The notes below the pieces were generated by a model that made no database searches, was not told where the DNA came from, and saw only the letters and a program-made list of their open reading frames with translations. Shown piece after piece: positions 20,441-49,919 of a stretch of DNA of 64,000 nucleotides. Made by a program: the position numbers and the translations under genes. Each line of letters starts with the position of its first letter. Within the stretch, counting starts at the first letter, position 1. Origin of the DNA: Citrobacter gillenii (GTDB lineage Bacteria; Pseudomonadota; Gammaproteobacteria; Enterobacterales; Enterobacteriaceae). The DNA lies in assembly GCF_013337685.1 (NCBI RefSeq), contig NZ_SUQN01000009.1, positions 62,001 to 126,000 of the forward strand, in the 5' to 3' direction.

Positions 20441-20489
20441 GGCAAGGTGATTTCTGGACGTACTCCTTCCTGAAGCCGGTTTTCTGGCA

Positions 20490-22181
20490 TTGTTGTTAAG
20501 TCTCGGGGTCAACGTGTTGACCCCGCTTGCCGTGCTGACGGGCGTACGTCAGCGCTGGCAGGGCGTTATGCGTCTGGCCTGCGTGGGCGTGTGGACGCAG
20601 TTTGCGCTGCTGTTGCTGGCCTTTGCCATTCTGGTGTTCTGTTTCCTGACCAGTGATTTCTCCGTTGTTTACGTAGCTCAGCACAGCTATAGCCTGCTGC
20701 CGTGGGGATTAAAGCTGGCGGCGGTGTGGGGTGGTCATGAAGGATCGCTGCTACTGTGGGTGCTGTTTCTTTCTGCCTGGAGCGCACTGTTCGCCTGGCG
20801 CTCCAGGCGTGAGCCGGACGCGCTATTTCCGTTAACCCTCTGTGTCTTGTCAATGATGACCGCGTCATTGCTGCTGTTCGTGGTGGTGTGGTCCGATCCG
20901 TTCGTACGCATCTTCCCGCCGGCAATTGAAGGGCGCGACCTGAACCCGATGCTGCAACACCTGGGGCTGATTCTGCATCCACCGCTGCTGTATCTGGGCT
21001 ACGGTGGGCTGATGGTGGCGGCCGGCGTGGCGCTGGCTTCGCTGCTGCGCGGCGGCTTTAACGCGCGGACTGCCTGGGTGTGCTGGCGCTGGGCGCTGCC
21101 CGGCTGGTGCGCCCTGACGCTTGGGATCATCCTTGGTTCCTGGTGGGCTTATTGTGAACTGGGCTGGGGCGGCTGGTGGTTCTGGGACCCGGTAGAAAAC
21201 GCTTCCTTATTACCCTGGCTTTCCGCCAGTGCGTTACTGCATAGCCTGTATGTCTCACGGCAGCGTGGAGGTTTCCCGCACTGGTCGCTGCTGCTGGCGA
21301 TTGTCACGCTGATTTTATCGCTGTTGGGCACGCTGATTGTGCGTTCCGGCATACTGGTTTCTGTTCATGCCTTTGCGCTGGACAACGTCCGCGCTGCGCC
21401 GCTGTTTGCGCTGTTTACCGTGTTAAGCCTGGCATCGCTCGGTCTGTATGCCTGGCGGGCGCGGGACGTCGGTCACACGGTACGTTTTGGCGGCTGGTCG
21501 CGTGAGATGATGATTCTGGTCGCGCTGCTGCTGTTTTGCGCGGTGCTGCTTATCGTGTTGATTGGCACGCTGTATCCGATGATTTACGGCCTGTTTGGTT
21601 GGGGACGACTCTCCGTTGGCGCGCCTTACTTCAACCGTGCAACGCTGCCGTTTGGCCTGCTGATGCTGGTGGTCATCGTGATAGCGACGATCAGAAGCCG
21701 GAAGGTGCCGCTGCGAAGCCAGCTTCCGGCGCTGCTGGCGCATGCTGGCGTGCTGGTTTTTGCTGCAGGGATCGTGTTCTCCAGCGGGAGCCGCCAGGAA
21801 GTGAGCCTGAATCTGAGTCCTGGGCAGCAGGTTGAACTGGCAGGCTATGTTTTCCGCTTTGAGCACCTCTCTCTGGAAGCAAAAGGAAACTACACCAGTG
21901 AAAAGGCGCTGATTACGCTCTGGCAGGATGAGAAACGCATCGGCAGCCTGCAGCCCGAAAGACGCTTCTATTCCGCGCGTCGCCAGCAAATGATGGAGCC
22001 GGGTATCCGTTGGAACCTGCTGCACGACTGGTACGCGGTGATCGGCGAAAAAACCGGACCGGAGCGCTATGCCATGCGCTTGTACGTGCAAAGTGGTGTG
22101 CGTTGGGTTTGGGGCGGAGGGCTGCTGATGGTATTCGGCGCGCTGCTCAGCGGCTGGCGGGGGAGAAAGCGCGATGCGTAA
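20490..22181 (+). CDS. nrfE: Haem lyase subunit NrfE (CcmF-like)
   Basis: Membrane component of the special haem lyase that attaches haem to the CWSCK site of NrfA. It has many helices and the CcmF-family tryptophan-rich motif ELGWGGWWFWDPVENA near residue 227. The start is uncertain: I give the TTG at 20490 (563 residues), but it has no Shine-Dalgarno sequence. The frame is open back to 20451, and the preceding residues (LPEAGFLALL) look like real coding sequence, so a CTG at 20454, six bases after AAGG, is an alternative. There is no ATG or GTG in frame. The 3' end overlaps nrfF by 8 bases. Confidence 0.88.
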   Translation: MLLSLGVNVLTPLAVLTGVRQRWQGVMRLACVGVWTQFALLLLAFAILVFCFLTSDFSVVYVAQHSYSLLPWGLKLAAVWGGHEGSLLLWVLFLSAWSALFAWRSRREPDALFPLTLCVLSMMTASLLLFVVVWSDPFVRIFPPAIEGRDLNPMLQHLGLILHPPLLYLGYGGLMVAAGVALASLLRGGFNARTAWVCWRWALPGWCALTLGIILGSWWAYCELGWGGWWFWDPVENASLLPWLSASALLHSLYVSRQRGGFPHWSLLLAIVTLILSLLGTLIVRSGILVSVHAFALDNVRAAPLFALFTVLSLASLGLYAWRARDVGHTVRFGGWSREMMILVALLLFCAVLLIVLIGTLYPMIYGLFGWGRLSVGAPYFNRATLPFGLLMLVVIVIATIRSRKVPLRSQLPALLAHAGVLVFAAGIVFSSGSRQEVSLNLSPGQQVELAGYVFRFEHLSLEAKGNYTSEKALITLWQDEKRIGSLQPERRFYSARRQQMMEPGIRWNLLHDWYAVIGEKTGPERYAMRLYVQSGVRWVWGGGLLMVFGALLSGWRGRKRDA

Positions 22182-22683
22182 ATTAATCACAGCGTTGCCG
22201 GATGGCGGCGTAAACGCCTTATCCGGCCTACAGGGTACGCAAACCGTAGGCCGGATAAGCGCAGCGCCATCCGGCAGAAAGTTTTTACTCTTAACGATCG
22301 TCTTGTTTTTCATCACTTTCGCTACGCATGCCCAGGTTGTCGACACCTGGCGTTTTGACAACCCGCAACAGCAGGAAAAAGCGCTGTCTATTGCCAGCCA
22401 GTTGCGCTGCCCACAGTGCCAGAATCAAAACTTACTGGAATCCAATGCGCCGGTGGCGGTCAGTATGCGTCATCAGGTGTATAGCATGGTGGCAGAGGGC
22501 AAAAGTGAACATGAGATCACCACGTGGATGACCGATCGTTACGGTGATTTCGTCCGCTATAACCCGCCGCTCAATAAGCAGACGCTGTTGTTGTGGGCAC
22601 TGCCGTGCCTGTTATTGCTGCTGGTGGGCGTGATTATCTGGCGGGTGAGAACGCATCAGCGCGTAGAAGAGGATGAACGATGA
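22174..22683 (+). CDS. nrfF: Haem lyase subunit NrfF with a REP-encoded N-terminal extension
   Basis: CcmH-like thioredoxin-fold partner of NrfE that keeps the NrfA apoprotein cysteines reduced; the motif [10 protein letters not shown] with its CxxC is intact at about residues 78-87. At 169 residues it is about 40 longer than E. coli NrfF (127). The extra part is N-terminal: codons 8-34 are read from a complete REP pair (22195-22277). The normal signal peptide, beginning at [12 protein letters not shown], follows only after it. There is no ATG or GTG after the REP that would restore a standard start, so the signal peptide carries a roughly 34-residue leader. A C-terminal membrane helix lies near 136-156. 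Confidence 0.88.
22195..22277. repeat. REP pair inside the nrfF coding sequence
   Basis: The unit ttgccggatggcgg...ccttatccggcctac is followed by its inverted partner gtaggccggataagc...gccatccggca. It is a full BIME of the same kind as the intergenic ones in this window, but it is translated without a stop codon as part of nrfF. Confidence 0.95.
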
Positions 22684-23297
22684 GTCAGCCTGAATGTTGT
22701 GCACCGTTGCGTCCGATGCCGGTAAAACGCCTGGCCGCTATAGCTGTGCTGATGGTGATTGCCTGCACGGGAGGGTATTTGTTGTCGCCTAAATGGCAGG
22801 CGGTCCAGCAGGAGCAGGCGCGACTGGCTGACCCGTTACATGCGTTTTCTGATGAAAATATGCAGGAAAAACAGCTGCTTTCGCTGCAGTCAAAAATACG
22901 TGCCAACCCGCAAGACAGCACGCAATGGGCGCAACTGGGTGAGTATTATCTTTGGCAAAACGCGTATCATAATGCGCTACTGGCCTATGAGCAGGCGCTG
23001 CGTTTGCGCGGTGAAAACGCCGAGATCTATTCGGCACTGGCGACGGTGCTGTACTATCAGTCCGGGCAGCATATGACGCCGCAAACCCGTGAGATGATTG
23101 AGAAATCGCTGGCGCTGGACCCGACAGAAGTTACCGCGCTGATGCTGCTGGCTGCTGATGCGTTTATGCAGGCCGACTATGCACAGGCTATTTTGCAGTG
23201 GCAAAAAGTTCTCGATTTAAACTCGCCGAGGGTGGATCGTGCTCAGTTGATTGACTCAATCAATATGGCGAAATTGCTGCAGAATCGACAAAAATAA
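22680..23297 (+). CDS. nrfG: Haem lyase subunit NrfG (TPR protein)
   Basis: A 205-residue membrane-anchored protein with an N-terminal helix (about residues 14-34) and a tetratricopeptide-repeat domain facing the periplasm. TPR proteins of this type (CcmI/NrfG) bind the C-terminus of the apocytochrome, here NrfA, and present it to NrfE/NrfF. TPR-like repeats are visible, for example [20 protein letters not shown]. The start overlaps the nrfF stop (ATGA). Last gene of the operon. Confidence 0.93.
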
Positions 23298-31738: not shown

Positions 31739-31820
31739 GCCGGATGGCGCTGCGCTTATCCGGCCTACAAATTCATAGCGATCTTGTAGGCCGGATAAGG
31801 CATTTTTGCCGCCATCCGGC
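31739..31820. repeat. BIME between binding-protein and isomerase genes
   Basis: Units tgccggatggcgctgcgctt...cggcctac and gtaggccggataagg...gccatccggc, inside the sugar operon. It may set a difference in mRNA level between the transport and the catabolic halves. Confidence 0.92.
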
Positions 31821-49357: not shown

Positions 49358-49807
49358 TTACTCCGTGGGGGGCTGCTGCTGTTTGACGACGTTGATCATC
49401 CACGGCACACCGTACTGGTCGGTGACTTTACCGAAACCGTGCGCCCAGAATGTTTCCTGCCAGTCCATTTCGATTTGACCTGTTGCTGCCAGGTTGTCAA
49501 ACCAGCGCTTCCCTTCGTTGACATCCTGCGTGTCGAGGACCAGCGTGAAGCCGGAGTAATGGGCTTTTCCCGTCGCGACGCCGTCGCTCATCATGATGTC
49601 GCTGCCCGCAACGCGCAGGTTGGCGTGGGCTATGGCGGTATCAGGGAATTTCATTCCAGAAGGGCAACCCTCTTCACTGTCCTGCGCCGACTGGGGCATT
49701 TCACCGAAGTTGATTTTGTAGAGCAGTTCTGCGCCCAGCGTCTGTTGGTAGTACGCAATGGCGTCAGCGCAGTTGCCTGCAAAAGAGATGTAGGGACTTA
49801 ACGACAT
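49358..49807 (-). CDS. yjdN: VOC-family protein YjdN (PhnB)
   Basis: A 149-residue glyoxalase/bleomycin-resistance-fold protein of the DUF1338/3-demethylubiquinone-like subgroup. It matches E. coli YjdN throughout (FAGNCADAIAYYQQTLGAEL near the N-terminus, WQETFWAHGFGKVTD near the C-terminus). Despite the old name phnB it is not needed for phosphonate use. The start at 49807 follows AGGTAAAG. Confidence 0.93.
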   Translation of the reverse strand: MSLSPYISFAGNCADAIAYYQQTLGAELLYKINFGEMPQSAQDSEEGCPSGMKFPDTAIAHANLRVAGSDIMMSDGVATGKAHYSGFTLVLDTQDVNEGKRWFDNLAATGQIEMDWQETFWAHGFGKVTDQYGVPWMINVVKQQQPPTE

Positions 49808-49850
49808 GATCTTTACCTCAGGTAAAAGAAGCCCGTTAAGTGTAGTTAGC

Positions 49851-49919
49851 GTAGGCCTGGTAAGCGAAGCGCCACCGGGCAATAAAAGCCGGATGGCGAC
49901 TAACGCCTTATCCGGCCAA
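49851..49919. repeat. BIME between yjdN and yjdM
   Basis: A degenerate unit gtaggcctggtaagc...gccaccgggc is followed by gccggatggcgac...cttatccggcc. Confidence 0.88.

Follow-up and report, generated by a model that had tools for sequence, protein, structure and literature searches.

How a palindromic repeat of a family that is described as extragenic comes to lie within the reading frame of a gene, ahead of a Sec signal peptide, and whether it is translated there, are the questions raised by the nrfE-nrfF-nrfG locus of Citrobacter gillenii. We analysed a stretch of 64,000 nucleotides containing this locus (hereafter the window; genes lie on the plus strand unless stated otherwise). In it, nrfE (20451-22181), coding for a CcmF-like haem lyase subunit, is an open frame of 576 amino acids matched by NCBIfam NF007691 over residues 4-575 and closed by TAA at 22179-22181. 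The gene nrfF (22174-22683, 169 amino acids) starts at an ATG (22174-22176) placed so that the two genes overlap by 8 nt, and is preceded, inside nrfE, by a putative Shine-Dalgarno sequence, GGGGAG (22160-22165). Its first seven codons (22174-22194), whose first 8 nt are those shared with nrfE, are followed by an 81-nt inverted REP pair (22196-22276), then by the Sec signal-peptide region (22273-22332, residues 34-53, with a helix predicted at 34-50 and a probable cleavage site at Ala-53, before the mature part) and finally by a normal NrfF. The downstream partner nrfG (22680-23297) is a separate gene. NrfF has a CcmH domain (PF03918, 4.3e-44), the LRCPQC form of the LRCxxC motif (residues 77-82) and a predicted N-terminal signal helix, and the NrfF model TIGR03147 (1.2e-61) matches its residues 39-161, i.e. 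starting shortly after the REP.

As the original prediction had it, a complete REP pair stands in frame inside nrfF without a stop codon, and the frame is open through it to 22683. Four of the six possible readings of the pair (two orientations by three frames) are stop-free, and the open frame of the window alone is weak evidence for translation, within chance. Up to the hydrophobic core, the in-frame ATG, GTG and TTG codons are ATG 22174, TTG 22195 and TTG 22303, at -156, -135 and -27 nt from the Ala-53 codon; the last lies within the core, and no ATG or GTG follows the REP.

The pair consists of REP unit 1 on the minus strand (22196-22231, GTAG end at 22231, translated on the plus strand), a 14-nt loop (22232-22245) and REP unit 2 on the plus strand (22246-22276, GTAG end at 22246, also translated). 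Its outer arms (22196-22207/22265-22276, 12 nt) and inner arms (22218-22231/22246-22259, 14 nt) are both 100 % complementary. The 14-mer core has 214 exact copies in the genome, 107 per strand, against none for the reversed control, and for this reason the pair is a real member of the REP family of this genome. A match to Rfam naRNA4 (RF02564), which we take to be a family of REP-derived RNA, lay over REP unit 1 on the minus strand (22178-22228), with 38 bits against a gathering score of 59.5.

Checked by eye against the entries in Table 1 of PMC2817692, the unit is a GTAG-ended palindrome of 20-40 nt. It resembles the enterobacterial GTAG-family REP types that this table lists for both C. koseri and S. 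enterica, i.e. a GTAGGCCGGATAAG...CGCCATCCGGC unit and its inverted pair. High copy number and closely spaced units of opposite orientation, two further traits of the family, are also present. Location is the exception: GTAG-family REPs are described as extragenic, whereas this pair lies within a translated gene. Lying outside genes is customary for the family, and the survey of intragenic REPs (PMC3733652) admits intragenic members. No match to the Y1 transposase domain (PF01797) was found in the genome of the window; such matches occurred in 5 of 12 genomes tested, with a distribution that does not track the REP state at nrfF, and genes for REP-associated tyrosine transposases may be lost (PMC3733652). 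One of the genomes surveyed below (G273) has seven PF01797 matches, six of them with identical scores, and this resembles a multi-copy insertion element.

The claim that a coding REP is unusual was borne out for this genome. The window holds 26 REP half-sites (at most two mismatches), and among ORFs of at least 100 amino acids covering any of them, only nrfF and a glyoxalase-like ORF (49358-49882, minus strand) had a Pfam match. In 20 further stretches of the genome, taken as every fifth of 100 listed REP core sites, none of the 25 REP cores fell in an ORF of at least 80 amino acids with a Pfam match. The site in the glyoxalase-like ORF is a degenerate core (49851-49864) at its 5' end, ahead of the domain, and the start of this ORF may be mis-set. 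A second candidate coding REP, at 31755-31799, was discarded as it falls between two genes.

To place the junction in its family, NrfF was searched in the genomes available; it was found in all 17 Citrobacter genomes (that of the window included) and in 58 of 392 genomes of the family at E 1e-40, genus-level top-up searches adding five new genomes. Of the 74 genomes tabulated, one (G193, genus g45) was dropped as its nrfE is not beside nrfF, which left 73 junctions. At that locus (L099) nrfF lacks the signal and the first mature residues, and the operon looks truncated. Inserts were called long when at least 110 nt separated the nrfE anchor from the Ala-53 codon. By this definition 26 junctions are long (112-160 nt, REP-derived) and 47 are short (53-103 nt), the E. 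coli type included. An insertion unique to the strain of the window is thereby rejected. Long inserts occur in 6 of 23 genera, i.e. in 11 of 17 genomes of Citrobacter (g1), all four counted of g45, the single one of g61 (whose junction is the same as that of a named C. amalonaticus locus, L039), all three of g94, six of eight of g125 and the single one of g134. The oddity at nrfF to which the original prediction drew attention is thus real in this strain, but it is not an isolated case, REP-derived in-frame sequence being found in six genera.

A REP core with at most two mismatches was recognised in 22 of the 26 long inserts. Three others (G339, G394 and G060) hold one only with three mismatches, and the last (G006), devoid of a core, was placed among them on the similarity of its linker to the others (0.733 to G003). 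None of the 47 short junctions holds a core with at most two mismatches; G313 has one with three mismatches and G085 one with four. One 103-nt junction counted as short (L058 of G057) encodes a leader that exceeds the usual length by about 15 residues and in which no REP is recognisable, and this leader is possibly a fully eroded REP. Of 5426 E. coli genomes, 5370 have a match to a junction without REP that covers 80 % or more of a 501-nt query, the 20 matches listed of these being single pieces. REP-less starts are what outgroups have, in agreement with the proposal that such a start is ancestral. The proposed ancestral form, a start region ATG-CGT-AAA-TTT-TTA split into two halves by the REP, was seen in no REP-less relative; the nearest REP-less starts read ATG CGT AAT/AGT ATC TGC... 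in Citrobacter and ATG CAT AAC AGC GGA ACG TTT TTA CTC in G058 (locus L061).

All 26 long inserts are in frame, 20 of them read from a start that overlaps the nrfE stop and six continuous with nrfE. Twelve insert lengths were recorded between the nrfE anchor and Ala-53, and every one keeps its frame class (1 modulo 3 in all 20 separate genes, 0 in all six fused ones), which suggests that indels have been filtered for frame. On this comparison the in-frame state is beyond chance, and the translation of the REP that had been proposed for the window gains support. A leader of the same length free of REP sequence would have spoken against this proposal; the only ones of this kind carry an eroded REP and so speak for translation, not against it.

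In six of the 26 genomes (G003, G006, G007, G015, G273 and G241) both the nrfE stop and the nrfF start are missing. Five of these have a single open frame of 738-788 amino acids made of NrfE, the REP-derived linker and NrfF, and in the sixth, G241, a frame of 935 amino acids also takes in NrfG. Family models find NrfE and NrfF within the single ORFs of G003, G241, G273 and G006, as well as NrfG in G241, and a Pfam run on two of these four genomes agrees. The fused frame also occurs in the named loci of C. werkmanii NBRC 105721 (L035), Citrobacter sp. MGH106 (L036) and C. portucalensis A60 (L042), which were not counted in addition to the six. Assembly error was judged an unlikely source of the fusions, as they are found in six genomes, of which G003 is assembled in one contig and G273 in two.

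The linkers are more alike than the nrfE genes upstream of them. Among G003, G007, G015 and G273, the five pairs computed have linkers 0.977-1.000 identical against 0.795-0.927 for the upstream nrfE (for G273 and G015, 0.989 against 0.81). The nrfE genes of these four genomes form no clade, and their joint grouping on the nrfE tree was rejected (p-AU 1.8e-71). From near-identical linkers beside diverged, non-clade nrfE genes, we infer exchange of the junction across species and genus boundaries.

Such exchange bears on the origin of the insert, which may have been one ancient insertion, passed down with losses in part of the lineages and shuffled by later recombination, or several insertions at one hot spot; we consider a single event about as likely as not. 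Site and frame are identical throughout, 16 of the 17 inserts with both REP cores found share a loop length of 14 nt (it is 11 nt in the eroded insert of G339), and the linker and tree data just given point to exchange. Against a single event, both orientations of the pair exist and loop sequences differ. Moreover, parsimony on the nrfE tree (54 rows) needs nine changes for presence and 15 for orientation and presence together, with states assigned by eye and 13 of 51 inner branches weakly supported. The two orientation forms (also classified by eye) are both open in the frame used, and reverse-complementing the pair of the window yields a peptide of the second type.

What selection preserves at the junction was then considered at the level of residues and of nucleotides. 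In the leader, pN/pS was 0.37 in Citrobacter, 0.96 in g125 and 0.68 in g94, compared with 0.08, 0.06 and 0.07 in the mature part, and 0.32 and 0.82 in two fused groups, compared with 0.09 and 0.15, all these values resting on small counts. On these ratios the residues of the leader appear loosely constrained while the frame is kept. Across 1.4 kb compared in five carriers from Citrobacter, divergence is lowest in the 83 nt of the REP (38 differences of 830), and none of the 1139 windows clear of it reaches so low a value. Synonymous sites show the same, with 26 of 285 for the leader and 353 of 751 for the mature part. A REP that was neutral except for its frame would not account for such low divergence. 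In g125 and g94 the REP is no more conserved than its flanks. To judge from these alignments, the frame is kept everywhere and conservation at the nucleotide level is found in Citrobacter, in both forms, but not in g125 or g94. As to gaps, the nrfF REP has none in any of the four Citrobacter carriers set beside the window, which share 78-82 of its 83 bases, against 6 of 20 gap-free, full-length locus-species cases for five nearby extragenic REPs. The four carriers were chosen for having the nrfF REP, so that its presence lies outside this test, which concerns the absence of gaps; the REP-less G005 was the fifth genome in this comparison.

These data raise the possibility that selection maintains the REP as RNA or DNA, with a hairpin that begins some 22 nt inside nrfF tuning initiation, ribosome speed or mRNA decay and hence the NrfE:NrfF:NrfG ratio, with translation as a by-product. 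The window leader folds at -59.5 kcal/mol (z -6.2 versus shuffles), and its standing as the most conserved stretch in Citrobacter, synonymous sites included, fits this view. We nevertheless consider it rather unlikely as the main explanation: 5 of the 26 inserts fold scarcely better than shuffles (z -1.0 to 0.0), all five with an open frame, the conservation does not extend to g125 and g94, and recent exchange or gene conversion between REPs would lower divergence too. It is very improbable that NrfF translation begins after a REP that is truly extragenic, as PMC3733652 proposed for most 5'-end REPs: the NrfF model match does begin past the REP and an in-frame ATG or GTG stands after the insert in some relatives (between 48 and 30 nt ahead of Ala-53; 8 of 20 separate genes and all six fused genomes), but the other 12 separate genes have neither codon there, that of the window among them, for which this start is rejected, nothing would then hold indels to multiples of three, and nrfE reads straight through into nrfF in six genomes.

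We therefore regard as probable that the REP pair is translated as the N-terminal part of NrfF and has been domesticated as a permissive signal-peptide leader, then as a fusion linker. This reading builds on features present in the genomes themselves (the insert, the kept frame, the fusion ORFs and near-identical linkers despite diverged nrfE) and supposes, beyond them, translation in the cell, near-neutrality of the leader, a given topology and processing of the fusions. A REP pair would have settled just inside nrfF, at the overlap with nrfE, and be read as the N-terminal part of NrfF, where the extra residues would only lengthen the cytosolic n-region of the Sec signal peptide and the disordered leader would remain inside on signal cleavage. 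The junction may tolerate a REP because the added residues merely extend a cytosolic, disordered n-region that is lost with the signal. In the window, where neither ATG nor GTG follows the REP, selection would keep above all the reading frame. The possible second starts after the insert (8 of 20 separate genes and six of six fused, not the window) count against this reading. As NrfF was reported to be dispensable in E. coli (PMC3601427), the gene as a whole may be under weak constraint.

Structure predictions are consistent with this leader. In the AlphaFold2 model of the window NrfF (mean pLDDT 76.1), residues 1-28 have pLDDT below 50 and are followed by the helix at 34-50. In that of the fused protein of locus L088 (mean 75.5), the linker (574-608) likewise has pLDDT below 50, between helices 550-573 and 605-619. 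The leader is thus predicted to be disordered, from models that rest on shallow alignments (37 and 24 rows). Foldseek related the two halves of the fusion to CcmF (6zmq) and, weakly, to CcmH (2hl7). The passage from insert to linker would have required the loss of the nrfE stop and the nrfF start, so that a REP-derived peptide connects NrfE and NrfF in a single chain. Topology would permit such a chain, the C-terminus of NrfE being probably cytosolic (judging from its RGRK end and the topology of CcmF) and the NrfF signal running from inside to outside, and signal peptidase could still release NrfF from it. Going further, the REP could be a frame-safe, exchangeable cassette, perhaps recruited repeatedly and open in both orientations, serving as leader, then as linker of one-chain NrfE-NrfF and NrfE-NrfF-NrfG, with additional RNA/DNA selection (dual coding) in Citrobacter; we put this forward as a tentative extension, with doubt.

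Intragenic REPs and Rickettsia palindromic elements are already known. According to PMC3733652, more than half of the REPs inside ORFs occur as dimers or groups encoding 20-30 residues, and the nrfF REP, lying within an ORF as a dimer, resembles these. Most 5'-end cases of P. putida, C. koseri and S. maltophilia were held there to be non-coding, whereas the nrfF REPs keep frame across genera and include read-through fusions. Rickettsia palindromic elements are inserted in frame into genes (PMC10969869), as is the nrfF REP. We liken the two by behaviour, without filing the latter as such an element: it is an enterobacterial REP, in a Sec leader, and a linker between two genes of the same complex. 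Precedents also exist for fused adjacent subunits of System I lyases, E. coli CcmH being a CcmH-CcmI fusion (PMC3601427). NrfF-NrfG are likewise fused in one ORF of 357-381 amino acids at L075, L100 and L124 (genera g81, g90 and g62), where the nrfE-nrfF junction is short and without REP, and open-frame length suggests the same in nine more genomes. The NrfE-NrfF fusions differ from these by their REP-derived linker, the NrfF-NrfG fusions being confirmed in three genomes of other genera with short nrfE-nrfF junctions. Neither a REP in nrfF nor an NrfE-NrfF fusion was found in the papers searched; the list of intragenic REPs in Additional file 3 of PMC3733652 may include the C. koseri nrfF.

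The nrfF REP is real and, judged by comparison, translated, and it belongs to a pattern that spans six genera. It provides a clear comparative case for a translated enterobacterial REP, where the survey of intragenic REPs doubted most 5'-end cases, and outlines a path by which a repeat between overlapping genes may turn first into a peptide and later into a linker of fused proteins. The division of labour in the lyase for the CXXCK haem of NrfA is described as not yet clear (PMC12285233), and the natural one-chain NrfE-NrfF(-NrfG) variants could aid structural and functional work on this lyase.
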